NCBI GenBank assembly: GCA_014155875.1
Contig: JACEFZ010001381.1
Location: 1,272,265 to 1,336,264, forward strand
DNA: 64,000 nucleotides
Source of the DNA: Cepaea nemoralis
Taxonomy: Eukaryota; Mollusca; Gastropoda; Stylommatophora; Helicidae
Direction of reading: 5' to 3'
Shown here one piece after another: positions 5,795 to 64,000 of this stretch. Every line of letters starts with the position of its first letter. Position 1 is the stretch's first letter. Below the pieces are notes generated by a model, which was not told the DNA's origin, did not search any database, and worked only from the letters and a program-made list of their open reading frames with translations. A program made the translations under genes and the position numbers.

Positions 5795-6812
5795 TTCACA
5801 GACAACAGGTAGATAAACTTGTGTACATGGCTGGTGTTTCACAGACAACAGGTGAATAAACATGTGTACATGGCTGGTTTTTCACAGACAACAGGTAGAT
5901 AAACATGTGTACATGGCTGGTGTTTCACAGACAACAGGTAGATTGTGTACATGGCTGGTGTTTCACAGACAACAGGTGAATAAACATGTGTACATGGCTG
6001 GTTTTTCACAGACAACAGGTAGATAAACATGTGTACATGGCTGGTGTTTCACAGACAACAGGTAGATTGTGTACATGGCTGGTGTTTCACAGACAAAAGG
6101 TAGATAAACATGTGTACATGGCTGGTGTTTCAGACAACAGGTAGATAAACATGTGTACATGGCTGGTGTTTCACAGACAACAGGTAGATAAACATGTGTA
6201 CAAGGCTGGTGTTTCACAGACAACAGGTAGATAAACATGTGTACACGGCTGGTGTTTCACAGACAACAGGTGGATAAACATGTGTACATGGCTGGTGCTT
6301 CACAGACAACAGGTGGATAAACATGTGTACATGGCTGGTGCTTCACAGACAACAGGTGGATAAACATGTGTACACGGCTGGTGTTTCACAGACAACAGGT
6401 AGATAAACATGTGTACACGGCTGGTGTTTCACAGACAACAGGTGGATAAACATGTGCACATGGCTGGTGTTTCACAAACAGGTGGATAAACATATGCACA
6501 TGGCTGGTGTTTCACAGACAACAGGTAGATAAACGTGTACATGGCTGGTGTTTCACAGACAACAGGTAGATAAACATGTGCACATGGCTGGTGTTTCACA
6601 GACAACAGGTAGATAAACATGTGCACATGGCTGGTGTTTCACAGACAACAGGTAGATAAACATGTGCACATGGCTGGTGTTTCACAGACAACAGGTGGAT
6701 AAACATATGCACATGGCTGGTGTTTCGCAGACAACAGGTAGATAAACATGTGTACATGGCTAGTGTTTCACAGACAACAGGTGGATAAACATGTGTACAT
6801 TGCTGGTGGACA
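5795..6812. repeat. 43-bp minisatellite, about 24 copies
   Basis: Unit TTCACAGACAACAGGTAGAT followed by AAACATGTGTACATGGCTGG and TGT. Variants include GTGGAT, ATGTGCAC and several shortened units lacking AAACAT. Minus-strand open frames of 60-90 codons across it are translations of the repeat. It lies in the DEPDC1 intron between the exons at 9251 and 5458. Confidence 0.95.
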
Positions 6813-17488: not shown

Positions 17489-17492
<4 letters not shown>

Positions 17493-17528
<36 letters not shown>

Positions 17529-17543
17529 GGGGGGGGGGGGGGG
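17493..17543 (+). repeat. Poly(G) tract, about 50 nt
   Basis: An almost pure G run broken by one A, followed by a short GT run. Such a tract is hard to sequence and its length is unreliable. The proline-rich minus-strand frames here are artefacts of it. Confidence 0.9.
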
Positions 17544-31939: not shown

Positions 31940-33679
31940 GCAATTCTTCTTCTGCTGCGTTCATCCGGAGTTTTTTTTTCCGGATGTGATTGCGTTGTGC
32001 CTGTTTACAGCAGAGCTGCGTTCTTGCGCCGTTAGGCCGACACATCCGACTTCTGCGGGCATTTGTTGACCGGGTTAACCTTCCCGGGGGTTTCTTAGGA
32101 CGTTTGACTCTCACTGTTGTGGTGTTATTCCCCATCCCAGCTGGCCCATATAGAACAGTCAAAGATCCTGGTCAGCCCTCAAGGGAAGGCAGGGGCAGAC
32201 CATGGGCATTCCCCGCCATCCAAGGAGGCTTCCATACTTGCAGAGCCGATACACAGCGCTCTGGTACTGGGCTCACCCAAGGAATCGTCACGTCCTGCAC
32301 ATGGCTGCTTAGCCTCACTTCCGTATATTGGGCCTTCCGTTCACCATAGGCTGTTCTTCTGGAAACCAGAAGTATGCAGTCTGCAGATGACATCCACACA
32401 GTGAGCTTTCAATTCGGACTTTCCATGTAATGGATTTGCTATCCAAGCAATATTCCATTTCGTGCCACTAGGACACTTTTCCACCTTTTATGAAGCCCAC
32501 ACAGTGGGCTTTTGATTCAGATTTTCCACGTAATGGATTTGCTATCCAAGCAATATTCCATTTCATGCCACTAGGACACTTTTCCACCTTTTATGAAGCC
32601 CACACAGTGGGCTTTTGATTCGGACTTTCCACGTAATGGATTTGCTATCCAAGCAATATTCCATTTCGTGCCACTAGGACACTTTTCCACCTTTTATGAA
32701 GCCCACACAGCGAGCTTTCGATTTGGACTTTCCACATAATGGATTTGCTATCCAAGCAATATTCCATTTCATGCCTCTGGGTTTTCATGCACCTTTAAAT
32801 GTCAACCTGTATGTAGTTAAAGTAAGCTGCGGTCAACTTGAGCTTGTTGATATCTCCATAGAGCTTGTCCTCAAATGAAGCAGGTGTGGGCCAAAATATC
32901 TTTCTCTGTTCTGCATACGTTGGGCAATCCTGCAGCAAATGTTTTGCTGTCATTTTTCCAGTTCTACAATTACATTCATCGGTATCTCCTATCTTTAGTT
33001 TATTGAACAAGTGGTATTTCAGCCTGTTATGTCCTGTGAGGAGTCTGAAGATTGCTACTTGTTCTCTTCGGTCGAGTTTGTAATATGCATCATCCTTCTG
33101 ATAGCCTGGATGCTCTGATTCCCATTTGGTTCTATAAGTGCTTTTTATCAACCTCTTTGCCTCATTATAGGTTATGTCTATGTCAGGCTGTGGTAGTCGT
33201 CCGCCCTCTTTTGCCAGTCTGTCAGCCTCTTCGTTTCCAGGTATACTGCAATGTGATGGGATCCACTGTATTACAACATTTTTGGATTTCTGGCATAGAC
33301 CATGGAGTGCTGCTCTTAGGTCAGCTAGTTCTGTGCTGTTATTGCTCTTCAGTATTGAGACAGCTGACTTTGCATCTGTGAAGATAGCTATTTGCTTCTC
33401 TTTATTTTCCTCCATCAGGAGCAATTCTGCTGCAGTTTTCAGAGCCTCTACCTCCGCTTTGAAGTTACTTGAAAATTTTCCAGTTGCCATTGAATGTTTT
33501 TTTTCCACTCCATTTTTTAAATTTAGGAGAATTCCTCCTCCTCCATTCTCTAATGAATTTTAGGCTGATCCATCTGTATATGCATGGGTCCAATTCCTGC
33601 TTGGGTAATGTTCTTTTATGTAGTTTAGGGTTATTTTTCTTCTTTCGGTTTCATGCTGAGTGTTATTTTTCTCAATACC
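31940..33679 (-). mobile_element. Family A LINE, 3' part (RNase H, zinc-finger-like tail, 3' UTR)
   Basis: The minus-strand frame 33508-32795 encodes an RNase H core: FTDAKSAVSILKS, VVIQWIPSHCSIPGNEEAD and RLAKEGGR. A Cys/His segment follows (DECNCRTGKMTAKHLLQDC), then LYGDINKL and the stop. The 3' UTR holds about four 103-bp tandem repeats (32395-32790) and the S5 end with CCGGATGAACGCAGCAGAAG. The element stops at the duplication junction (33679), so upstream domains are missing here. Confidence 0.85.
32395..32790 (-). repeat. 103-bp tandem repeats in LINE 3' UTR
   Basis: Unit CACACAGTGGGCTTTTGATT, then CGGACTTTCCACGTAATGGA, TTTGCTATCCAAGCAATATT, CCATTTCGTGCCACTAGGAC, ACTTTTCCACCTTTTATGAA and GCC. 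There are about four units here, about four at 35765-36150 (unit 2) and two in the family A copy at 61240-61380. Copy number varies between LINE copies. Confidence 0.85.
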
Positions 33680-33744
33680 AAAATGTCACCGTGAGAATAA
33701 TAGAGCATTGACTACACAGCAAACAGTCTCAACAGCCCTTTTTT

Positions 33745-33955
33745 TTTTTTTTGGTGGCATATCCCTTACAGAACATTTGCAGTCAACATCAGCATTTTCC
33801 AGCTGCTGTTGATATACTAGGCAAGATTACGCTCAATAGTTTGCCATTGCTTTATGAGCAATTGTGAGACCGGCATTGGCTAACAACAGCCTTAGCTAAC
33901 AAAAAACAAAACGCAGACCTCAAAACCTCTCTGTGGTACACCAGCAATGGTAAAT
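33745..33955 (-). mobile_element. tRNA-derived SINE, family S2 (unit 2)
   Basis: Duplicate of the S2 copy at 30395, with one- and two-base length differences. It belongs to unit 2 of the tandem duplication. Confidence 0.6.
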
Positions 33956-33989
33956 AAATCATCAATAAGAGAATTTCATCTAATGAATA

Positions 33990-34375
33990 ACAATAAAGAC
34001 ATCAATCATCATGTGCCATGCCAGAAAGCGTGGGCGGTCATGACTCGCCATTTCACTCGATCACCAGAGGTCGTGGGATCAGCTCAGTGTTCCTGTCTCG
34101 TCCATGCCATGTGGCGATGGCCATCCAGGTATTTTTCCTCTCGTCAATCCTCTTGGTCTGTTCCCCTTGATCTTGCCAGTTGTCACTAAGTTCTCCAGTC
34201 CATTTCTTCTCATAATATGTCAAAAAATTTTTACCTGTCTACGTCTAATTTCTCTAATCAATTTACGATTTTCATTTGTCTCTTGTAGTACTTGGTCATT
34301 GGTTTTTCTGTCTGTCCATGGTATTCTTTGCATTTTCCTCAGAAAACCACATTTCTGCAGCCATCAGATGTTTTA
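33990..34375 (-). mobile_element. RTE-like LINE family D 3' fragment (unit 2)
   Basis: Second copy of 30635-31015 within unit 2, with several single-base insertions and deletions that change its frames. It is 5'-truncated like its partner. Confidence 0.65.
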
Positions 34376-34577
34376 ATAAACATACACAAGAAAAAAATTA
34401 AAATAAAACTACCCCATAAAACCTTGTCTATGTACCATTCCATTTCCATCCAAAACAAATCCAATTGGTCAATCTGTTTTTATCAACATTGATTATAATA
34501 TATAACATCTTTTCCCTCCCGATGTGGTTATTTCTTTTGCCATGTTGCTTATATAAATGTTCAACTCCGTGACTTAC

Positions 34578-34692
34578 TTATAGAGTCTATTTTCCTGCAC
34601 ATCTTGCTTGTGGCGCATGGTCTTGGAGACTCTCACTTCCTCAATATGCCAGCTGCTGTACAATTTGTTTAAGAGGGGAAGTCGCTTTATCC
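34578..34692 (-). pseudogene. Duplicated, frame-broken copy of the second DEP exon
   Basis: A near-identical second copy of exon 31333-31220, carried by unit 2 of the tandem duplication. It is 115 nt instead of 114. Compared with the intact copy it has an extra C in a CCC run, an extra base near AGAGC and one T fewer in TTT, so the middle of the exon is read in another frame (KRLPLLNKLYSSWHIEEV instead of TSLLNKLYRAGIFEEV). Splice motifs are kept at both ends. It is either a decayed duplicate exon or a noisy assembly copy of the same locus. Confidence 0.8.
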
Positions 34693-35310
34693 CTGTGTTA
34701 AATAGTTTCATCAGTGTATTCATTGACACAGTTATATACTGATAGATACAGATGTCACCTACTGGGCATGAAAACATAAATTGTTCAGCAAATGGAGAAT
34801 TTTAAATAAACAGACAACGGAAACATGAAATATATACAGGCGATCTTGTCTGTAATTTTTCTAATTATTTCAGCAACAGATCATGAATAAAGTGCTATCT
34901 CCCAAATGAAAGACTGCAAAAGGTATGTAACACTTTCTGCCTTGCTATGTTCGCCCATCTCTTAATGTTATCTTCTTACATCAATAATGGCCTATCGTAT
35001 TTCTGGCTGCTGGTTGACTTTTCCTTCCAGTGGGCATTTATAAGAGTAATTTTTTTAACATGGCAAAAAACATCCACAGATCATATTGGTGTAGTTTATA
35101 CTCAATTTTTCACATAGCTGAGAGAAAGATTGGCCGCCTAATTCTCCATTTATGCAGGCCCTCACCATGCGATGGGCCCTATTATGTGACACATAACAGG
35201 CTCATAGCGAAGAAACTGCTTAGGGACCATTTTTATTCCAAAATTAAAAAAAATTATTTACAATGCAAAACAGTTTCTGCATATATAAAACTATCCACAT
35301 CCTAGCAATT

Positions 35311-38300
35311 CTTCTTTCTTCTTCGTTCATCCGGAGTTTTTTTTTTCCGGATGTGATTGCGTTGTGCCTGTTTACAGCAGAGCTGCGTTCTTGCGCCGTT
35401 AGGCCGACACATCCGACTTCTGCGGGCATTTGTTGACCGGGTTAACCTTCCCGGGGGTTTCTTAGGACGTTTGACTCTCACTGTGTGTGGTGTTATCCCC
35501 CATCCCAGCTGGCCCATATAGAACAGCCAAAGATCCTGGTCAGCCCTCAAGGGAAGGCAGGGGCAGACCATGGGCATTCCCCGCCATCCAAGGAGGCTTC
35601 CATACTTGCAGAGCCGATACAGTAGCGCTCTGGTACTGGGCTCACCCAAGGAATCGTCACGTCCTGCACATGGCTGCTTAGCCTCACTTCCAGTATATTG
35701 GGCCTTCCGTTCACCATAGGCTGTTCTTCCGGAAACCAGAAGTATGCAGTCTGCAGATGACATCCACACAGTGAGCTTTCAATTCGGACTTTCCATGTAA
35801 TGGATTTGCTATCCAAGCAATATTCCATTTCGTGCCACTAGGACACTTTTCCACCTTTATGAAGCCCACACAGTGGGCTTTCGATTCGGACTTTCCACGT
35901 AATGGATTTGCTATCCAAGCAATATTTCATTTCATGCCACTAGGACACTTTTCCACCTTTATGAAGCCCACACAATGGGCTTTTGATTCGGACTTTCCAC
36001 GTAATGGATTTGCTATCCAAGCAATATTCCATTTCGTGCCACTAGGACACTTTTCCACCTTTTATGAAGCCCACACAGCGAGCTTTCGATTGGACATTCC
36101 ACATAATGGATTTGCTATCCAAGCAATATTCCATTTCATGCCTCTGGGTTTTCATGCACCTTTAAATGTCAACCTGTATGTAGTTAAAGTAAGCTGCGGT
36201 CAATTTGAGCTTGTTGATATCTCCATAGAGCTTGCCCTCAAATGAAGCAGGTGTGGGCCAAAATATCTTTCTCTGTTCTGCATACGTTGGGCAATCCTGC
36301 AGCAAATGTTTTGCTGTCATTTTTCCAGTTCTACAATTACATTCATCGGTATCTCTTATCTTTAGTTTATTGAACAAGTGGTATTTCAGCCTGTTATGTC
36401 CTGTGCGGAGTCTGAAGATTGCTACTTGTTCTCTTCTGTCGAGTTTGTAATATGCATCATCCTTCTGATAGCCTGGATGCTCTGATTCCCATTTGGTTCT
36501 ATAAGTGCTTTTTATCAACCTCTTTGCCTCATTATAGGTTATGTCTATGTCAGGCTGTGGTAGTCGTCCGCCCTCTTTTGCCAGTCTGTCAGCCTCTTCG
36601 TTTCCAGGTATACTGCAATGTGATGGGATCCACTGTATTACAACTTTTTTGGATTTCTGGCATAGACCATGGAGTGCTGCTCTTAGGTCAGTTAGTTCTG
36701 TGCTGTTATTGCTCTTCAGTATTGAGACAGCTGACTTTGCATCTGTGAAGATAGCTATTTGCTTCTCTTTATTTTCCTCCATCAGGAGCATTTCTGCTGC
36801 AGTTTTCAGAGCCTCTACCTCCGCTTTGAAGTTACTTGAAAATTTTCCAGTTGCCATTGAATGTGTTTTTTTTCACTCCATTTTTTAAATTTAGGAGAAT
36901 TCCTCCTCCTCCATTCTCTATTGAATTTTTGGCTGATCCATCTGTATATGCATGGGTCCAATTCCTGCTTGGGTAATGTTCTTTTATAGTAGTTTAGGGT
37001 TATTTTTCTTCTTTCGGTTTCATGCTGAGTGTTATTTTTCTCAATACCAGGAATGTTTTCTATCATCTCAGGCAGTTGCTGCTGTCTCCAAGCTGGGAAC
37101 TTGTGTGCATTGTAAATGGGCTTGACTGTTGATATGTTAAGTATAGGATCTGCCTAATCCTTCGTTTTGCAGTTTCTACAAAGTTGCTACGCTTGAGTCT
37201 TCCCTTTCCAAAACCATTAAATCTGTTGTACATAGGGTGGTCTGTCAATCTTCTAAATTTTTCTGCTTGTTGCTGGGCTCTGCTATCTCTTCTATCCTGC
37301 ATTGGTTGTAAACAAGTGATCTTTTCTAGTTCATTAATAGGCGTTGTCTTCAGGCTTCCAGTTATGATTCGCATTCCTTGGTTTTGGACTCTACTTATTT
37401 TGTTAAAGTTTGACTTAGCTGCTGTTGCCCAAGCTGCAATGCCATATTCCAGTACTGGCCTCACCCGTCCAGTATATAACTTCTTGAGGACTTTCTCATC
37501 TGCTCCCCACGTTGTACCAGTAAGCTTTTTCATGATTGCCATTCTCTGCCTTGCTCTTGTTCGATTTTTCTCAACCTGTGTCTTCCATGTCAGGCGATGA
37601 TCAAAGGTGACTCCTAGATAGTTTGGATTTTCTTCATGGCGCAATATTTTTCCATTCAATACCAGCTTAGGTTACTGAGTTTTATTTGAGAGGGAGAACA
37701 CTGTGCATGTTGTTTTCTCCTCACTTATCTTCACTAGCCATGATTTTGACCAGTCCTCTAGCGCTAATAAGGCTTGCTGTATTCTGCTGTTAGCTGTACT
37801 AATATATTCTTCAGATGTCCATATGGCTAGGTCATCTGCAAAGGAGGATGTGTGTACTCTGGCTGGAAAATTTTCTGTGATGTCATTTATATATGCTAGG
37901 AATAATGTTGGTGAAAGAACTCCTCCTTGGAGGACACCTTGCTCCAACAGCATCATTTTGCTTGTTTGTCCTTTACTTTTGTCCTGGCAGTTCTGTTCTC
38001 AAGGTAGTGGCTGATCCATTTATACATTTTTCCACAAACATGCATTTTTTGCAGTTTTACTTTCAGTCCTTCCTTCCATACTTTATCAAATGCTTTTTCT
38101 AAATCTATCCAGACTGCTAGTGTGTGCTTTTTCTCTTGGAAGGCATCCTCTATTTCCTGAGCTATATAGGTTATTTGATCTTCAGTGGATCTGTACTTTC
38201 TGAATCCTGCTTGGTGTGGTGTTAAGAGTTTGTTTTCTTCCAGATGCCATGTTAGCCTGCCATTGATAATGCGTTCCATTAATTTTCCTACACAGCTAAG

Positions 38301-40025
38301 TAGACTGATAGGTCGATAGCCATTTGGTTCTTCCAGGTCTTTTCCTTTCTTTCGGACTGGTATTAGTATAGCTTCCTTCCATGCCTGTGGGACTATTCCT
38401 CTCTTCCAGCTGTTATTTAGGACTGCTAGTAGTTTCTTCTTTGCCTTGGTGCCTAGTCCTATTAGCATTTCATTTGTGATTCCATCCTTTCCTGGTGATT
38501 TCTTCTTTTTTAGGGTATTCATTGCCTGTTCCATTTCTTCCATTGTTAGATTTGCCATCATATATTCTGCTGCTGTCTCTGTATTTCTATGATGTATCTG
38601 TCTTTGATTGCTTTCATCTGTTCGGTTGTAATATCAATGTGGTTTGCATTTGCATAGTGTTCCATTAGTGCATTTGCAGCCTTTTTTCCTATAAGCAAGG
38701 CATGTCCTTGTTTAATTGTTATTTGTTTGTTTCTAGTCCTTGTTTGTTTCTAGGTCCTTCATTGTTCATGGCTTTCACTAGCTTCCATAGTTTGTTTCCA
38801 TCCCTGTCAAAATTCAGGTTTTCTGTTTTTTCCCTCAACAATCTCTTGTTGTTTGATTTACTGTTCTTTTATATTTTGCTGAGATGGCTTTGAGAGAGAT
38901 GTTCGCTTCAATTGTTTGTTCTCTCTCTGCTGTCTTCCTGGCATCTTCAACTTTGTCCTCCAAACTTTGTAGTTCTTCAGTCCAGTATGGTTTGTAATTT
39001 TTCCTCGCTCCTCTAGGAATGGACTCAGTGGCTGCCTGTATTATCGCTCTGTTTAGACTTTCCACCATTTGCTTTATGTTGCCATAACGTGTATTTATGT
39101 TTTCACAATATTTGTCTGTTAGTATGGCAAATCTGTCCCAATCTGCTCGTTTGTAATTCCAGCGGGGCAAGGGCTTTTGCTCCTGTGGAACATACTCCAT
39201 ATTCATTACAAGCTTGATTGGTCTGTGGTCACTACCTGCTATTTGGTCCAGCACGTGGCGATCGATTTTGTGGAGGATGTCTCCTGTGCAGAAAGCTAAG
39301 TCTGGAGTAGAAGTGGTAATCCATCTTCTGGAGTAGAAGCTCGGTGTGTCATCCGCTTTGTTGAGTAGATTGAGATTTGAGTCTATTTCCCAGTCCTCCA
39401 ATTCATCTCCTCTTTTGTCAGTATCTGGGTATCCCCATCTTTCTGAACGGCTATTAAAGTCTCCGACAATAATGCAGTTTGTGTCAGTTATTTTCATGTT
39501 TGAGAGTGTAAGGTCCTTATCTGCTGGGCTATACAGATTGTAGATTCTTATTTTCACGTCCTTTATCATTATAGCAACACCTATAATTTCCGTTTGGTTG
39601 TCAGAGATCACAGATACTTCGCTGCAAGGTATTGTATTTCGTGTAAGTATTAGAACTCCTCCTTTGTGTCCTTCGCGGTCGAAACGTGTGGCCTGATATC
39701 CTCTGACTGAGAATTTGTGATTGGCGTTGAGGTGTGTCTCTTGAATGCATGCCACATCTATTCTATCTTTATGAAGACACTGTGTTAGGGAGTCTTTCTT
39801 CTTGTAAACTCCTTCGGCATTCCACTGTAGTATGTTGAGTGTCCGGGGTATTTGGTCAATAGCTCTTAACCTACTCCTCTGTGCCTTGACTCCACAGCAC
39901 AGGGGAAGGTGACCACCAGTAGTCATGGGTGGACCCCCTCGAGGCAGGGGGCCCGGCACTATCGCCGCCTGATAGGACTTCACGGGATTAGCACCATAAC
40001 GATTAATTTTGATTTGTGACATCAT
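35311..40025 (-). mobile_element. Nearly complete family A LINE (I/Nimb-like), 4.7 kb
   Basis: Flanked by the 13-bp direct repeat CATCCTAGCAATT at 35298-35310 and 40026-40038. Order on the minus strand: endonuclease 39839-39215 (LNILQWNAEGV, IQETHLN, GDFNSRSERWG, SDHRP); reverse transcriptase 38561-37672 (GYRPISLLSCVGKLMERI, HQAGFRKYRSTEDQ, DLEKAFDKVW, FADD at about 37842-37831); RNase H 36857-36500 (FTDAKSAV, WIPSHCSIPGNEEADRLA); a Cys/His segment; a 3' UTR with 103-bp repeats; and the S5 end. The ORF is broken at several points, so this copy is inactive. No ORF1 is present. The clade name is an inference from the domain order and RNase H. Confidence 0.9.
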
Positions 40026-40059
40026 CATCCTAGCAATTAATTTGTATGATATAATTTTT

Positions 40060-40315
40060 TTTTTTTTTTGTCTATCCTGTTTACAGGACATCGCTGTCAA
40101 TACCAGCATTTTACTGCTGTTGTTGATGTCTTGGCAAGTTTACATTCAGTAGTTTGCCACTCCTTTCTGAATGACCGGCTCTCATACCAATTCGCTAATA
40201 CCCAGCTCAACGCAATATGCTGCCAAATGGGTCGCCGCTGTGTTTCGAATGCAGGTAAGTGGACTTATGAATCGCGTCTGTAAGCCCTTCGCCATGGAGA
40301 CCAGCGCATGATATA
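40060..40315 (-). mobile_element. tRNA-derived SINE, family S2 (best copy)
   Basis: On the minus strand it begins GCTGGTCTCCATGGCGAAGG, then GCTTACAGACGCG, CTGCATTCGAAACACAG (B box) and the common body ending at TGACAGCGATGTCCTGTAAA with an A-rich tail. The A/B box arrangement supports a tRNA origin. It lies just beyond the 5' flank of the family A LINE. Confidence 0.7.
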
Positions 40316-41945: not shown

Positions 41946-42640
41946 CGCACTGAGTTTGAAGTGCAACAGCTGATCCAGAGCAACATACATCAAGGTGACA
42001 TAGTCATCTACACCGATGGACGTAGTGGCTGGGGCTTTATTGCAAAGGCTAATGGGCAAGTCTTGAAAAAGGAGAGTCTGGCATTGAGACTACGACCTTC
42101 AGCATGAGAATGGAGGCAGTAACAGCGGCATTCCGGTGGCTAGAAAAGACTACTGCAACACACGTATTCATTACGGATTCAAAGAGTATGCTTAGCAAGG
42201 TGAAGAAAGAAATGTTTCGTGTGGAATGGCTCTCGTCACTTCAGAGGTCACAGATCGTGAGAACTGTATGGATATTTTGCCCTGGCCATGCGGGTGTACG
42301 AGGGAATTAACAGACTGATAGGCTAGCAGGGAAGGCACCTCTTGGTGGAATTTTGCCTATGGACAAGGGGGGAGGTGGTCGTGCGCTTGTGGAACCAGGT
42401 GTAGAAGGCAGGAGGAACAGATTGAGAACCCATATGTGGAAAGAATGAGATTGCGGGGGATCGGCAGGGGTTCTGGAAGAATCTCAAAACTGAGAGGGTA
42501 GACTAGGACAACTTTTAATCAGATAGCGGTGGGAACGATTAGTAGTGTGACTCTTTGCTGGCTGTTGAACGAAGGGACGGAGCACTATGGGAATGTCCTG
42601 AGTGCAGTGATGTCGGTTCTTAACTCAACTCAACTTGGTA
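41946..42640 (+). mobile_element. LINE family B 3' fragment with RNase H
   Basis: Plus-strand frames read DIVIYTDGRSGWGFIAKANG, then RMEAVTAAFRWLEKTTATHV, FITDSKSMLSKVKKE, IVRTVWIFCPGHAGVRGN and SVTLCWLLNEGTE. These are RNase H motifs (YTDG, ITDSK, NxQxDRLA after a stop). The 3' end is a CTTAACTCAACTCAACTT tail. It is interrupted by stops, so no product is expected. Confidence 0.75.
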
Positions 42641-43107
42641 GATTTTTAACTAGAAATTTTGCCCGGACACCATACCTCGAGACCACTGTATGGATATTTT
42701 GCCCTGGCCATGCGGGTGTACGAGGGAATTAACAGACTGATAGGCTAGCAGGGAAGGCACCTCTTGGTGGAATTTTGCCTATGGACAGGGGGGAGGTGGT
42801 CGTGCGCTTGTGGAACCAAGTGTAGAAGGCAGAGGAACAGATTGAGAACCCATATGTGGAAAGAATGAGATTGCGGGGGATCGGCAGGGGTTCTGGAAGA
42901 ATCTCAAAACTGAGAGGGTAGACTAGGACAACTTTTAATCAGATAGCGGTGGGAACGATTAGTAGTGTGACTCTTCGCTGGCTGTTGAACGAAGGGACGG
43001 AGCACTATGGGAATGTCCTGAGTGCAGTGATGTCGGTTCTTAACTCAACTCAACTTGGTAGATTTTTAACTAGAAATTTTGCCCGGACACCATACCTCGA
43101 GACCACT
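42264..43107 (+). repeat. 422-bp tandem duplication, two units
   Basis: 42264-42685 is repeated almost exactly as 42686-43107. Each unit runs from CTGTATGGATATTTTGCCCT in the LINE to GAGACCACT in the SINE remnant. Only a handful of differences are visible (for example CTTTGC/CTTCGC and GGACAAGG/GGACAGG). The junction shows CACTG microhomology. A poly(C) run of about 19 (43111-43129) and GCGCGCTGCGCAGCG follow. Confidence 0.92.
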
Positions 43108-46419: not shown

Positions 46420-47486
46420 TCAGAAGAAGTCACCGTAGGCATTCAGGCAAGCATCCCATTGCTTAGGTAGGCGGCGAATGCCTTCCGCAAAAAAGTATTG
46501 TGGTTGCTCACTGAACCAAGTGTTTACCGCGTTCATTACGTCTGCATCTGTGTGAAATCGTTGCCCCTTGAGAGTTTTATTTTAGAGGTCCAAACAAATG
46601 AAAATCACATGGTGACAAATCAGGACTATAGGCTGGATGTTGCAGAATTTCCCACGTCTTCCTTGCTAATGCTTCCTGCACAATCTTTGCGACATGCGGA
46701 CGAGCATTATCGTGCAAAAAAATCACACAGCGAGAAAGCATGCCTGGTCGTTTATTCTTGATGGCTTTTTGCAGCTTGTCTAGTGTTTGCAAGTAGTGGG
46801 TAGAGTTGATGTTGACACCAGGTTCTTTAAAGTCGGCCAACAATAGCCCTTCATGGTAAAAAAATGCACTCAGCATAACCTTACCAGCAAAAACCTGTAA
46901 CTTGAATTTTTTGGCTTTTGGTGATCCAGCATGCTTCCATTGCATGCTCTCTCTTTTGCTGCTCGGCTCAAAGTGGTGACACCATGATTCATCACCTGCC
47001 ACTATGCGGAAGAGAAATGCATCACCCTCCACTCTGTACGCAGCAAGTGGTTCAAATACCATCCCCATGCGTTCCTTTTTTTGGTGGTCGGTCAACATCC
47101 GTGGTACCCACTGTGAACACACCTTCCAATATTGCAGTTTCTTACGAACGACATTTTGAATTGTCCCAATTGATACATCAAATTATTTCGCTAGCTAACG
47201 TATGCTTCGACAATGGTTCATCTGTATTGCTGCATCAATTTTGGTGATGGTTTTCTCTGTTGCAACAATATGCGCTTGACCCGGCCGTCGAAGATCTGTC
47301 GTGAACTGACGTCCTTTCCGAAACATTCGTGCCCAGTCTGTCACTGTTGTCTTCGACACACATTTGTTACCGTACGCTGCCTGCATTCTTCGATGAATGT
47401 CCACTGGTCGACATCCTTCAAATGAAAAAAAACTGAATTACCGCTCTTTGAGCTTCTTTGGATGGATTTTGGATCAACCCAGCCAT
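46420..47486 (-). pseudogene. Mariner transposase, broken
   Basis: N-terminus (about 47486-47200) MAGLIQNPSKEAQR and a DIHRRMQAAYGNKCV helix-turn-helix, with frame breaks. The core frame 47122-46577 holds VAGDESWCHHFEP, IFLHDNARPHVA and HPAYSPDLSPCDFHLF, the D,D34D catalytic motifs with WVPRMLTDHQKKER upstream. The C-terminus continues in another frame near 46500 (QWDACLNAYGDFF-type text). All three catalytic aspartates are present, but several frameshifts disable it. Confidence 0.88.
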
Positions 47487-51659: not shown

Positions 51660-52900
51660 CACCAAGTACTGTAGTTCTATGTCCTCGGGTGAACAGACAC
51701 GTTGAATAATGTCCTCTGGCCACCAAGACTCTACAAGATTTCCTTCTGTTTAACCTGCTGTCCTTTTTCTTCTTGATCTCATTGTGCAGTGGATGCTGTG
51801 TGTCGGCACTGATTCAGAGGTAGGTACATGCTTTGCAAATCATTGTTCCGTCTCCCATGGGGGTACCCCGCATGCTGTGTCTATTGTGCACCCTGGTATG
51901 ATACGAATGGACTTTTTCTGTATCTTCTCCAGTCTCCGCATCTGAGCCTGGGTGGTTGTGAATGTCTACAACCCCACGGCAGTTAAAAACTGCAATAAAT
52001 AGGCGCAAGAAAGGCGTCTTGGCAAAATGTTAGAACAGACAACCCCATCCACGGGTGGTTACCTTTGATGGAATCTATCTAGAGATCGCAAATCTTAAGC
52101 AAATGTATGTTGAAGTCCGACATGCTGACCTTTTTTATGGATAAAAAATAGGTGTGGTGCACTCCGCTTGAACGAGAAATGTAGAAGAGGAAAATGGGGG
52201 GGGGGGGGGGTGGAGAGAATAAAACACAGACATTTACTAGCACATATAGAAGACAAGGGATGAAAGCATAAGACAATTAAACCCCCTCTGCCGTGTGTCC
52301 ACCGTGACGAAATAGAGGGGCGTGCACGTTCCAGTAACCCCAAGAGCAATGCCGACGGTAGCACAGCTACTGGTAGGGTCATCGATGTCGGACAGGTCAA
52401 GGGAGAGGAACCAGACTAAGAGACTCACACACGCCTGCTGCCTTACTTGTAGGTAAACTGGGGACAGTTAAAGGCTAGGGAAAGCGCCCGGAACAATGCT
52501 TGTTGAAATCGGATGTACTGAGCCACAGGCTTGACAAAGCAGTGCAACGTAACTTAATCAATGCATGATACCACAGATGAAAATTAATCGTTATGGTACT
52601 AATCCAGTGAAGTCCTATCACTGATAGGACGGGTTCCAAATGTTGCTGTATGTAGCCGAGGCGCGGTGTTGGGGTGAGCGCCCAACATTGCTCAAATACC
52701 TCAATGGCTCGTGAATACATAACCTATGCAGCAAAAGTCCAACTCCTGGCCTTCACGTGGCGGACCTGTTTAAACTAACAGGAGAAGGGGCGACGGCGAG
52801 TCTCTGGCGCCGGAAAATAACCAGTATGCTCTAGATGTGTATGCACGTACATGCATGCGCAGACAGGTGTATGCGCGCGTACACATCTACACTCGAGTGA
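51660..52900. other. Sequence of unclear origin upstream of a LINE
   Basis: GC is higher than in surrounding DNA. A poly(G) run of 14 lies at 52197-52210. Minus-strand frames of 60-100 codons show no known motif. Part of 52430-52960 could be 5' UTR of the following family A LINE, since no earlier boundary was found. Confidence 0.4.
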
Positions 52901-52969: not shown

Positions 52970-55375
52970 AATCAGGATGCCACGCAATCACGCAAAATGG
53001 AATATGTCGACTACTGCTAATCGTTATGGTGCTTTGGACCCCCAGGCAGGTGGAGTGCCGGGCCCTATGTCTCGAAAGGGTCCAACCCCAACTACTGGAG
53101 GTCCTTCTCAGATGTCCTGTGGAGCCAGGGGACATGAGAATAGGACGACTGGCCATACTAAACGAAGACTTAAAATAATGCACTGGAATGCGGAGGGAGT
53201 CAGCAACAAACAAATAGAATTAGAAAAAATCTTGGACCAAGAAAAAGTAAGCATATGTTGCTTGCAAGAAACTCACCTCAATGAAAATATAGCCTTCAAA
53301 ATCAGAGGCTACCAGTGTTACCGATCTGACCGAAAGAACAGGCGAAAAGGTGGGATACTGACCCTTGTAAGAAATAAACATCATGGCTTCCCAAATCAAA
53401 GTCTACATGGAAGGGGCTGAGTATCAGACACTTAAACTTAAGACAGGTAATACAGATCTACATCTGATCAATTACTACTGTCCAAGTGACCGCCCACAGG
53501 CACTGGACACTCTACCACTAAAAGAAAAAATGATTGTGTGTGGCGATTTCAACAGCCACTCGCAGAGCTGGGGCTATGATCACATGGACCAGAGAGGAGA
53601 GAGACTGGAAGACTGGCAGGATGAGAATAGATTCATGTTGATTAACAAGCCGTCCGACCCACATACTTTCTACTCGAGATCATGGCACTCTACAACTACA
53701 CCTGACCTGGCTTTTCATTCACCAGACCTGGAGTGGAACATTACACGAACTGTTGGGAAACAACTTGGTGGCAGTGACCATCGGCCAGTCTTTCTAACCG
53801 TAGAAAATGAGCTTGTAAGTGAAAGCAGCACCCTCTCGAGGTGGAACTACAAGAAAGCAGACTGGGCAATGTACAAGCATCGCACCAGCATACTGGTTAG
53901 AAACCTGAACACTGAGAAAGACATAAATAAAGCAGTTGAAGAGTTTGGGAAATGCATACTACAGGCAGCGCGAGAAACAGTACCAAGAGGAGCCCGTAAA
54001 CAATATAAACCCTACTGGAGTAGTGAACTGGAACAGTTGCATAATGATGTTGAAGTGTGTAGAAAGCAAGCAGAGGCCACACCCAGCCAAGAGCACCACA
54101 ATAAATTCCAGCATGCAAAAGCCAAATTTCAAAGGGCCAAGCTGCAGGCTAGACGGAAAATCTGGCAGGAGAAAACAGAGTCTCTGAACTTTGAAAGAGA
54201 CACAAGGAAATTGTGGAAGCTAATAAAACAGCTTAATGACGAGGGCACAGGGAGAAACTCAAAAATTGCACTACATAAAGATGGAAAAATCTTAACAAGA
54301 AAGCAAGCAGCTGACCATTTTGCGGACTCGTTCGCACAAGATAGCAATATCAAAATTAGTCCAGAGAAACAACAAGAGATTCGAGAGAAACGACAACATA
54401 CAGGACAGAAGGAAATAGTAGGCTTTCTGATCGTGATTTTCAAATTGATCATTTACTATTGGGAGAACCACAGATAGATAGGCCTTGAAAAACCAAATCT
54501 AACGGTACCTCAATGAGTTGTGTGTCTCAATTCTAAGCTGAGTTATGTAAATTTGAGTGTCGTGACCTTTTGACTAAAATTTTCACAAAAGAGTGCTCAC
54601 TGGAGGAATTTTTTGCGTCCTGGTCAAAATCTGGCCCAGATTATCAAAATTTTGGTGTTTTTTGAGACTATCTGTTTTGTTTATAAACGAACATCTTAGC
54701 AACCATACATCACTGCGATCGGGGTTGCAAGGCCTAACTGGTCATGTCAAAAAATAAATGACATGACCAGTTAGGCCTTGCAACCCCGATCGCAGTGATG
54801 TATGGTTGCTAAGATGTTCGTTTATAAACAAAACAGATAGTCTCAAAAAACACCAAAATTTTGATAATCTGGGCCAGATTTTGACCAGGACGCAAAAAAT
54901 TCCTCCAGTGAGCACTCTTTTGTGAAAATTTTAGTCAAAAGGTCACGACACTCAAATTTACATAACTCAGCTTAGAATTGAGACACACAACTCATTGAGG
55001 TACCGTTAGATTTGGTTTTTCAAGGCCTATCTATCTGTGGTTCTCCCAATAGTAAATGATCAATTTGAAAATCACGATCAGAAAGCCTATTATTCTGCGC
55101 CTCAGAACAGGACACAATAGATTACGCAACCACATGTATACAAAATTCAAGATTGGTGAAACAGCCATGTGCACATGTGGATTGGCGTCGCAGACAGCAG
55201 AGCACATACTCCAAGACTGCCCAAAATATAACATATCTAGGCAAACCTTCTGGCCTAGAGAGACGACAGTGGAAGATAAACTCTATGGACCACTGTGTGA
55301 ACTGAAAAAAACAGTTCAATTCATGCAAGAGACGACATTGCAGATATAGACATATTTCAAGCGAACGAAAGAAGA
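52970..55375 (+). mobile_element. Family A LINE, internally deleted, with palindromic insert
   Basis: Begins near the ATG at 52977 (MPRNHAKWNM). Endonuclease 53170-53800: LKIMHWNAEGV, LQETHLNENI, CGDFNSHSQSWGYD, GGSDHRPVFL. The frame changes at about 53390. A long linker follows to 54415. The reverse transcriptase and RNase H are absent. After the palindromic insert the sequence resumes at 55090 with LRLRTGHNRLRNHMYTKF, CTCGLASQTAEHILQDCPKY and a stop at about 55347. The 3' end is GCGAACGAAAGAAGAAGAAG. It is a different subfamily from the copy at 35311. Confidence 0.85.
54421..55087. repeat. Perfect 667-bp palindrome between TA dinucleotides
   Basis: Two 329-bp arms (54421-54749 and 54759-55087) appear to be exact reverse complements around a 9-bp loop AAAAATAAA. 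The outer ends are GGCTTTCTGATCG and its complement CGATCAGAAAGCC, each preceded or followed by TA (54419-54420, 55088-55089), as expected for a TA target duplication. It sits exactly where the host LINE lacks its reverse transcriptase. No coding potential was seen. Confidence 0.9.
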
Positions 55376-56151
55376 AGAAGAAAACTGATAGGACTTCACT
55401 GGATTAGTACCATAACGATTAATTCAGGCGGTGATAGTACCGGGCCTCCTGCCTCGAGGGAGTGTAACACAGCGGAATGCCGAAGGAGTTTATAACAAGA
55501 AAGTTTCCCTAACAAAGCGTCTTCATAAAGATAGAATAGATGTGGCATGCATTCAAGAGACACACCTCAACGCCAATCGCAAATTCTCAGTCAAAGGATA
55601 TCAAGCCACACTTTTCGACCGCGAAGGACAAACAGGAGGAGTTCTAATACTTACATGAAATACAATACCTTGCAGCGAAGTATAGGTGTTGATATAATGA
55701 TAAAGGACGTGAAAATAATAATTTACAATCTGCATAGCCCAGCAGATAAGGACCTTACACTCTTAAATATGAAAATAAAAGTCTCCATCTACTCAACAAA
55801 GCGGGTGACATACCGAGCTTCTACTCCAGAAGATGGTTTACTACTTTTACTCCAGACATTGGAGACATCCCCCACAAAATCGATCGCCATGTGCTTGGCC
55901 AATTAGCAGGTAGTGACCACAGACCAATCAAGCTTTGCAATGAATATGGAGTATGTTCCACAGGAGTAAAAGCCTTTGCCCCGCTGGAATTACAAATGGA
56001 CAGATTTGCCATGCTAACAGACAAATATTGTGAAAACATAAATACATGATATGGCAACATGAAGCAAATGGTGGAAAGTCTAACCAGAACAAGAATACAG
56101 GCGGCCACTGAGTCTATTCCAAGAGGAGCGAGGAAAAATTACAAACGATAC

Positions 56152-56297
56152 TTCTTCTTCCTCTTCTTCGTTCATCCGGAGTTTTTTTCGGATGTGCTTG
56201 CGTTGTGCCTGTTTACAGCAGAGCTGCGTTCTTGCGCCGTTAGGCCGACACATCCGACTTCTGCGGGCATTTGTTGACCGGGTTAACCTTCCCGGGG
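56152..56297 (-). mobile_element. Solo 146-bp S5 SINE-like element with target duplication
   Basis: Inserted antisense in the endonuclease-to-RT part of the family A LINE. The 11-bp direct repeats ACAAACGATAC flank it at 56141-56151 and 56298-56308. In its own orientation it starts CCCCGGGAAGGTTAACCC and ends in a GAA-rich tail. It is the same sequence as 29804-29951 and as the host LINE's own 3' end. Confidence 0.88.
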
Positions 56298-58773
56298 ACA
56301 AACGATACTGGACTGAAGAACTACAAATTTTGAAGGACAAAGTTGAAGATACTAGGAAGACAGCAGAGGGAGAACAAACAACTGAAGCGAACATGTCTCT
56401 CAAAGCCATCTCAGCAAAATATAAAAGAACAGTAAATCAAACAACAAGAGATTGGTGGAGGGGAAAAAATAGAAAGCCTGAACTTTGACAGGGATGGAAA
56501 CAAACTATGGAAACTAGTGAAAGCCATGAACAATGAAGGACCTAGAAACAAACAAATAACAATTAAACAAGGTAAAAAAGGCTGCAAATGCACTAACTGA
56601 ACACTAGGCCAGTGCAAACCACATTGATATTACAATCGAACAGAAGAAAGCAATCAAAGATAAACAGATACATCATAGTAATACAGAGACAGCAGCAGAA
56701 TATATGATGGCAAATCTAACAATGGAAGAAATGGAACAGGCTCCTAAAAAAGAAATCACCAGGAAAGGATGGAATCACAAATGAAATGCTAATAGGACTA
56801 GGCACTAAAGCAAAAAAAGAAACTACTAGCAGTCCTAAATTACAGCTGGAAGAGAGGAATAGTCCCTATACTAATACCAGTCCCAAACAAAGGAACAGAC
56901 CTGGAAGAACCAAATGGCTATCAACCTATCAGACTACTTAGCTGTGTAGGAAAATTAATGGAATGCATTATCAATGGCAGGCTAACATGGCACCTGGAAG
57001 AAAACCAACTCTTAACACCACACCAAGCAGGTTTCAGAAAGTACAGATCCACTTAAGATCAAATAACCTATATAGCTCAGAAAATAGATGATGCCTTCCA
57101 AGAAAAAAGCACACACTAGCGGTCTGGATAGATTTAGAAAAAGCATTTGATAAAGTATGGAAGGAAGGACTGAAAGTAAAACTGCAAAAAATGCATGTTT
57201 GCGGGAAAATGTACAAATGGATCAGCCACTACCTTCAGAACAGAACTGCCAGGACAAAAGTACAAGGACAAACCAGCAAACTAATGCTGTTGGAGCAAGG
57301 TGTCCCCCAAGTAGGAGATCTTTCACCAACATTATTCTTAGCATATACAAATGACATCACGGAAAATTTTCCAGCCAGAGTACACACAGCGTCCTTTGCA
57401 GATGACCTAGCCTTATGGACACCTGAAGAATATATTAGTACAGCTAACTGTAGAATACAGCAAGCCTTAATAGCGTTAGAAGACTGGTCAAAATCATGGC
57501 AAGTGAAGATAAGTGAGGAGAAAACAACATGCAAAGTGTTCTTCCTCTCAAATAAAACTCAGCAATCTAAGCTGGTATTGAATGGAAAAATATTGCACCA
57601 TGAAGAAAATCCAAACTATCTAGGAGTCACCTTTGATCGTCGCCTGACATGGAAGACACAGGTTGAGAAACATCGAACAAGAGCAAGGCAAAGAATGGCA
57701 ATCATGAAAAAGCTTGCTGGTACAACGTGGGGAGCAGATGAGAAAGTTCTCAAGAAGTTATATACTGGACGGGTGAGGCCAGTACTGGAATATGGCGTTG
57801 CAGCTTGGGCAACAGCAGCTAAGTCAAACTTTAACAAAATAAGTAGAGTCCAAAATCAAGGAATGCGAATCATAACTGGAAGCCTGAAGACAACGCGTAT
57901 TAACGAACTAGAAAAGATCACTTGCTTACAACCAATGCAGGACAGAAGAGATAGCAGCGCCCAGCAACAAGCAGAAAAATTTAGAAGATTGATAGACCAC
58001 CCTATGTATAACAGGTTTAATGGTTTTGGAAAGGGAAGACTGAAGCGTAGCAACTTTGTAGAAACTGCAAAACGAAAGATTAGGGCAGATCCTATACTTA
58101 ACATATCAACAGTCAAACCTATTTACAATGCACACAAGTTCCCAGCTTGGAGACAGCAGCAACTGCCTGAGACGATAAAAAACATTCCTGGTATTGAAGA
58201 AACGAACACTCAGAATGAAACTGAAAGAAGAAAAATAACTCTAAACTACATAAAAGAACATTACCCAAGCAGCAATTGGACCCATGCATATACAGATGAA
58301 TCACCAAAAAATTCAATAGAAAATGGAGGAGGAGGAATTCTCTTAAATTAAAAAAAAAATTAGTGAAAAATACAGTCATTGGCAACTGGAAAATTTTCAA
58401 GTAACTTCAAAGCAGAGGTAGAGGCTTTGAAAACTGCAGCAGAAATGCTCTTGCTAGAGGAAAATAAAGACAATCAAATAGCTATCCTCACAGATGCAAA
58501 GTCAGCTGTCTCAATACTGAAGAGCAAAAACAGCACAGAACTTACAGACCTAAGATCAGCACTGCGTGGATTATGTCAGAAATCCAAAAAAGTTGTAATA
58601 CAGTGGATCCTATCACATTGCAGTAGGCCTATACCTGGAAATGAAGAGGCTGACAGACTGGCAGAAGAGGGCGGACGACTACCTCAGCCTGACATAGACA
58701 TAACCTATAGTGATGAAAAGAGGTGTAAAAAGCACGTATAGAACCAAATGGGAATCAGAGCAGCCAGGCCACC

Positions 58774-63310: not shown

Positions 63311-63565
63311 CTAAATATAATGCTTCTGTTAATGCCAGTTTTATACATAATTCCCTTGTCCATTTCCCTTGCATTTTGTCTTCTAATACTCTCCTTGGCA
63401 TTTCTTCATTACCTTAGAAGAATAAGACCAAGCTATGAAAGACTTCGAATGTCTTCTTCGTAAATCTTCAGAGATCTAAACACATGAGAAGAAGAGACAG
63501 CCATCTAATAATGTGGGGGAGTATGAAAGGAGCAGCAGGAGACAGTAACAAATATGAATTCATTG

Positions 63566-64000
63566 GTCTGGGTTGGTTGATGATCTCTTCTTCATTGGGA
63601 CATAAAAGACAAAAGATATGAAGGCTTGGTCTGGGTTGGTTGAGGATCTCTTCTTCATTGGGACATAAAAGACAAAAGATATGAAGGCTTGGTCTGGGTT
63701 GGTTGATGATCTCTTCTTCATTGGGACATAAAAGACAAAAGATATGAAGGCTTGGTCTGGGTTGGTGATGATCTCTTCTTCATTGGGACATAAAAGACAA
63801 AAGATATGAAGGCTTGGTCTGGGTTGGTGATGATATCTTCTTCATTGGGACATAAAAGACAAAAGATATGAAGGCTTGGTCTGGGTTGGTGATGATCTCT
63901 TCTTCATTGGGACATAAAAGACAAAAGATATGAAGGCTTGGTCTGGGTTGGTGATGATCTCTTCTTCATTGGGACATAAAAGACAAAAGATATGAAGGCT
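63566..64000. repeat. 62/63-bp minisatellite, continues past the window
   Basis: Unit GGTCTGGGTTGGTTGATGAT, then CTCTTCTTCATTGGGACATA, AAAGACAAAAGATATGAAGG and CTT. About seven copies are visible. The first units have GGTTGGTTGATG, later ones GGTTGGTGATG (one base shorter). The true array length is unknown. Confidence 0.93.

Follow-up and report, generated by a model that had tools for sequence, protein, structure and literature searches.

The window, that is, the whole stretch of 64,000 nucleotides of Cepaea nemoralis DNA analyzed here, contains a LINE interrupted by a palindrome of 671 bases with perfect arms. The features of the locus are the following, sites A and B being the seven bases immediately to the left and to the right of the palindrome:

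52971-54418, plus strand: host LINE, N-terminal part with the endonuclease domain, unbroken as far as the palindrome edge (open reading frames, Pfam, match to Candidula P0002)
54412-54418, plus strand: site A, GAAATAG, a canonical 7-bp transposon target present here in a single copy (target profiles; no matching 7-mer at 55090-55096)
54419-54749, plus strand: left arm, the left end of a transposon, TAGGCTTTC...GTCATGTCA (exact reverse complement of 54759-55089)
54741-54767, no strand: centre of the palindrome, GTCATGTCA, loop, TGACATGAC; its native form is an imperfect hairpin, GTCATGTCA-TTTATTTTT-TGATATGAT
54750-54758, no strand: loop of nine bases, AAAAATAAA, the native post-arm sequence on the opposite strand (39/39 native copies continue with TTTATTTTTTGATATGATG)
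54759-55089, minus strand: right arm, the same left end inverted, ...GAAAGCCTA (arm alignment, native copies)
55090-55096, plus strand: site B, TTATTCT, where the LINE resumes; a poor target (intact LINE copies, 15-base score)
55090-55346, plus strand: C-terminal reading frame of the host LINE, RLRTGHNRL... (translated frame)

The original prediction described exact reverse-complement arms around a 9-bp loop, and base-by-base alignment of the arms agrees with it. The inner arms without TA (54421-54749 and 54759-55087, 329 bp) are exact reverse complements, and the match extends to 331 bp (54419-54749 and 54759-55089) when the flanking TA is included. The first base outside is mismatched, with G at 54418 and T at 55090; the repeat search carried the arms past this outer mismatch to 336 nt and still printed 100%. 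A perfect inverted repeat of 331 bp is far beyond chance. BLAST of the arm against the 64-kb window gave no third copy, the other matches being of 21 bases at most, and the window gave no Rfam match.

A search of the 3.47-Gb assembly with the 329-bp arm scored 40 of 2,828 candidates and yielded 42 matches. Two of these lie in the window itself, 39 are near-full-length copies at other places, and the last is partial. All 39 other copies were read, 20 as long stretches and 19 as short ones; they are best matches and not a random sample. After the arm, each of these 39 native copies goes on into TTTATTTTTTGATATGATG, and never into the inverse of the arm. The arms thus derive from a longer DNA transposon (TAGGC...CCCTA), which is not palindromic and of which they are the left end. 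In the first eight loci aligned, the arm sequence continues into a tandem array, the unit of which is 163 bp in the three native copies tested. The right end, CCCTA or a close variant, was located in 19 of the 20 long stretches, which gives element lengths from 803 bp to 7,940 bp (at least 3,560 bp in 18 of the 19 copies with both ends). TAGG is the only terminal sequence common to both ends of the element. As for internal inverted repeats, three of five copies tested have one of 71 bp at 90-93% identity, one has 45 bp at 82% and one has none.

TA precedes GGCTTTC in 38 of the 39 native copies. In 15 of the 19 copies with both ends, the seven bases before TAGG are identical to the seven bases after the right end, so that TA belongs to the element and the target duplication is 7 bp long; over 8 bp, the same copies do not match. 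Among the imperfect duplications, those of L015 (6/7, inside a microsatellite) and L017 (5/7) are the milder cases; L020 and L023 have 3/7, and shorter registers give 5/6 and 5/5, respectively. Two native copies, L019 and L024, have identical flanks and appear to be a single locus that was assembled twice, in which case perfect duplications would amount to 14/18. They represent the same insertion on two contigs, probably two haplotypes or a duplicated piece of the assembly. The native target consensus is approximately [GC]TA[AT]TA[GT], at varied AT-rich sites. The TA said to flank both ends of the palindrome is therefore present, but as the element's own terminus and not as a target duplication. 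The termini had been placed at 54421 and 55087; the genome copies put TA inside the element, which moves them out to 54419 and 55089. The 329 bp of the arm are identical in 11 of the 39 other copies read, so the arm-to-arm conversion put forward for the perfect arms is not needed. The transposon family is young and uniform.

A genome search for the centre as GGTCATGTCA-N9-TGACATGACC, with exact arms and a free loop, found it at one place only. The left junction, searched with up to three mismatches, gave the window and, with three mismatches, one native copy elsewhere. GAAATAG to the left of the palindrome and TTATTCT to its right agree at 2/7 positions, and there is thus no target duplication around it. 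The palindrome results from a one-off event that rearranged a young transposon, and is not a mobile unit with further copies. We had also considered a family of palindromes sharing this centre, which was rejected because the centre occurs once in that search. Like palindromic MITEs, the palindrome is short, non-coding and made of inverted transposon ends; in contrast to them, it lacks many dispersed copies, and its flanks carry a deletion instead of a duplication.

This deletion lies in the host LINE. As predicted, the two flanks encode the N-terminal and C-terminal portions of a LINE protein of one kind, whose best named relatives belong to Candidula, a land snail, and Elysia, a sea slug, in keeping with a gastropod host. 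On the left, Exo_endo_phos_2 (PF14529) is found on 53371-54417 (E 2.8e-17), and an ungapped 297-residue match to Candidula P0002 reaches the palindrome edge. On the right, the C-terminal frame shares 45-47% identity with three further LINE copies of the window. A 26-base pattern from this right flank has 19,007 genome sites with up to three mismatches (9,442 + 9,565), and 20 intact LINE copies were fetched from the exact matches listed first. At site B, all 20 read GTCA followed by TTATTCTG; the LINE of the window thus resumes exactly after the end of the arm, where arm end and intact LINE share one base, A. Out of four longer LINE stretches, two (L050 and L052) span both sites, while nothing in L049 matches the left flank and L051 stops at the end of its contig. 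At site A, L050 reads GAAATAG followed by TACATG and L052 has GAAACAG; the distance from A to B is 2,105 bp in L050 and 2,057 bp in L052. About 2.1 kb of LINE have therefore been lost exactly between the outer ends of the arms, and this missing part should carry the reverse transcriptase. That the palindrome sits exactly at an internal deletion of the LINE, and that the two events are linked, had been proposed from the start and is borne out by the absence of this segment relative to intact copies.

A deletion upstream of the palindrome was also envisaged, on account of the likeness of GQKEIV to RREQVAIF of other LINEs, and was dropped in view of the gapless alignment of Candidula P0002 up to the edge and of L050 and L052. 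The host LINE is bracketed by a perfect 39-bp inverted repeat (52582-52620 and 55386-55424), each half of which is similar to 39970-40025, in the 5' part of another LINE copy. At 55386-58741 and 32800-40139 (minus strand) there are LINE copies from a distinct, though related, family, some with RVT_1 and RNase H domains.

The original prediction took the palindrome for a Tc1/mariner derivative, which would have been inserted whole with a TA duplication. Its origin from a DNA transposon holds. The TA at both ends would also suit a Tc1/mariner unit, but TA lies inside the element, native duplications are of 7 bp (perfect in 15/19) and not TA, and a Pfam search with three frames of L026 gave nothing at a curated cut-off. 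Moreover, the centre has no second genome copy with exact arms and a free loop, CA and not TA precedes TTATTCT in 20/20 intact LINE copies, and 2.1 kb of LINE are missing. We regard this explanation as extremely improbable.

At the centre of the palindrome, followed in the native orientation, native sequence extends through the right arm, the loop and three further bases (TGA), beyond which it turns back. Here, GTCATGTCA and TGATATGAT of the native strand can form a stem of seven Watson-Crick and two G-T pairs that encloses a loop of nine bases. Such nine-pair stems, with loops of 3-20 bases, occur in L012 at 7 of 4,648 positions, in L022 at 8 of 3,560 and in L026 at 9 of 7,940; from these counts, the centre would coincide with such a hairpin by chance in about 0.1-0.2% of cases. 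Ten shuffles of L012 gave 3-8 such stems, versus 7 in the real sequence, so that they are no commoner in the element. The hairpin is weak (-2.6 kcal/mol), 29/200 shuffles being as good (63/200 for the opposite strand).

We then compared sites A and B as transposon targets. With a profile of 38 native left flanks, GAAATAG is in the top 0.07% of the window 7-mers, and with a profile from 37 copies, site A is in the top 0.08-0.12% for 7, 9 and 11 bases. A two-sided 15-base profile from 14 native sites places the L050 site in the top 0.04-0.07% and the L052 site in the top 0.6%. These scores designate A as a true insertion site. The 15-base score of site B is -4.2, under all 14/14 native sites (lowest -1.0, leave-one-out), and 36-41% of background positions score as well. 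One-sided scores of site B are 0.1 with the 38-copy profile (10/38 native sites being lower) and 0.19, -1.46 and -1.87 for 7, 9 and 11 bases (10, 6 and 3 of 37 native sites being as low); they fall inside the native range and are uninformative. Site B is probably not a true insertion site.

These scores matter for a scenario in which two separate copies would have inserted in opposite orientations at A and B, forming a large inverted repeat, after which a hairpin-guided deletion or template switch would have removed their interiors together with 2.1 kb of LINE. Both outer edges would then be exact termini with no shared 7-bp duplication, without further assumptions, and fold-back and rearrangement of inverted repeats are on record in yeast (PMC6103520). 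The family is also uniform enough, with its 11/39 other copies identical to the arms, to provide two such copies; however, two random ones would both carry the commonest arm in only about 8% of cases ((11/39) squared, in a best-match-biased sample), unless one arose by a local hop. In addition, B is a poor target by the 15-base score, its one-sided score being uninformative, both insertions must fall within 2.1 kb, and the scenario gives no reason to expect the junction at a rare hairpin. We hold two insertions to be rather unlikely.

We favor a single insertion followed by fold-back copying and joining to the LINE, which would have left two left ends of one DNA transposon head to head, and we give this reading a probability of about one half. 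The source of the arms, their boundaries, the missing duplication, the LINE deletion and the hairpin at the centre form its observed basis. The full element would have sat at site A and been cut by its transposase, for instance upon excision from one sister chromatid. Repair would have copied the left end back over about 340 bases and then stopped. The new 3' end (...TTTTTTGA) could have folded back, its TGA priming on TCA within the native hairpin, and the folded end would have copied its own strand outwards to the terminus left by the transposase cut. This copied terminus would have been joined to a LINE eroded by about 2.1 kb, the joint falling at site B and sharing one base at most. In a variant, the folded left end may have formed on the excised element and been inserted at A by one end. 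Since native left ends run past the loop in 39/39 copies, the inverse arm would be the new part, and copying makes the arms identical with no need for chance.

In favor of fold-back copying stand the unique centre, the lack of a 7-bp duplication, the contrast between a good target at A and a poor one at B, the exact loss of LINE and the rare position of the hairpin. Against it, copying that halts precisely at the edge of the element requires a 5' end in that place, so that the left side would have stayed uneroded while the right side lost 2.1 kb; besides, the hairpin is weak and equally frequent in shuffled sequence, and the one-sided score of site B is within the native range. A stagger of the P-element type could place the 5' end of the flank at the element boundary, where fold-back copying would stop. 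The excerpts of PMC8951532 and PMC2895639 report that excision of the Drosophila P element leaves 17-base 3' overhangs (for the stagger, see also the excerpt of PMC7776569), and that copying from the sister often halts early and is finished by alternative end joining, often with templated inserts. Fold-back structures and rearrangement at inverted repeats are documented for yeast in PMC6103520, and PMC8277862 describes template switching in animal TIR transposons.

The P{wa} assay in Drosophila, as presented in the excerpts of PMC8951532 and PMC2895639, resembles the proposed course of events in its transposase break, partial end copying from the sister and alternative end joining, and templated inserts and flanking deletions occur there. 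On the other hand, these excerpts describe no perfect two-left-end palindrome, the flanking deletions after P-element excision are prominent in BLM or pol theta mutants, and the present transposon is not necessarily a P element.

An artefact, such as a chimeric inverted read or a collapsed repeat, must also be weighed. Inverted chimeras arise at short complementary stretches, the evidence used here is the assembly itself, and this assembly has near-duplicate contigs (identical flanks of L019 and L024). A fold-back read, however, would run into the inverted left flank, whereas another part of the LINE stands on the right, and both junctions fall exactly at transposon termini. We thus hold an artefact to be improbable.

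As to the transposon itself, its longest native copies are L026 (element of 7,940 bp) and L027 (7,234 bp), whose transposase-like frames are broken by a 43-bp minisatellite, itself read in frame. The three frames of L026 gave no Pfam match at the curated cut-off, and searches of Pfam, PDB sequences and proteins gave no named transposase relative. In low-confidence models (AlphaFold, mean pLDDT 49.7 and 55.9), the transposase is predicted to have an RNase H-like core nearest to Hermes; Foldseek of these models gave no match below E 0.001. C466xxH469 of P0123 is invariant in 5/5 aligned proteins. The target-site duplication of hAT elements is 8 bp long. The present transposon differs from hAT (Hermes) by its 7-bp duplication and the lack of a Pfam match, the predicted models being of low confidence.

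Galileo, a member of the P superfamily in Drosophila, makes 7-bp duplications at TA-rich palindromic targets (GTATTAC), as does this transposon; the trait given for the superfamily, 7- or 8-bp duplications at such targets, is found here as well (excerpt of PMC4168063). Tandem repeats near the ends and copies with rearranged ends are further likenesses, but Galileo has long terminal inverted repeats where the present element has only TAGG (excerpts of PMC4168063 and PMC3573991), and the transposase here has no Pfam match. With Dada, the element shares a 6-7-bp duplication and a C/DxxH motif after the second D, a motif common to Dada, hAT, Kolobok, MuDR and P; many Dada families target multicopy RNA genes, in contrast to the varied AT-rich sites seen here (excerpt of PMC8869645). 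A tentative and rather doubtful proposal would be that a two-left-end mini-transposon arose at this locus, when a cut end folded on the 9-pair hairpin was self-copied to its exact terminus in one step, giving a perfect palindrome in which both ends are complete, and that the transposon group, with its 7-bp duplication, Hermes-like predicted fold and no Pfam family, is perhaps an undescribed DDE superfamily.

An artefact, conversion or the insertion of a MITE is readily invoked when a long perfect palindrome is met. In the present case, the parts of one rearrangement can be read base by base, thanks to its unique centre, the native transposon copies and the intact copies of the target, and a young transposon family comes to light, with 7-bp duplications and a transposase without Pfam match. 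If fold-back copying is true, transposon cutting, hairpin-primed copying and flanking deletion would be tied together, which would offer a direct and testable route by which palindromic MITEs or mini-transposons begin. The rearrangement is of moderate interest in itself, which would grow if transposase-cut ends proved able to fold back in this way.

Other repeats occur in the window. A mariner-type transposase fragment (Transposase_1, PF01359, E 3.2e-16) lies at 46580-47182 on the minus strand and belongs to a different transposon from that of the palindrome. A 420-bp unit is tandemly duplicated at 42263-43107, its two copies being 99% alike. The stretches 1652-2950, 5795-6808, 17491-17543 and 63563-64000 hold minisatellites with units of 53, 43 and 62 bp (24.5, 24 and 7 copies), together with about 53 G in a row.
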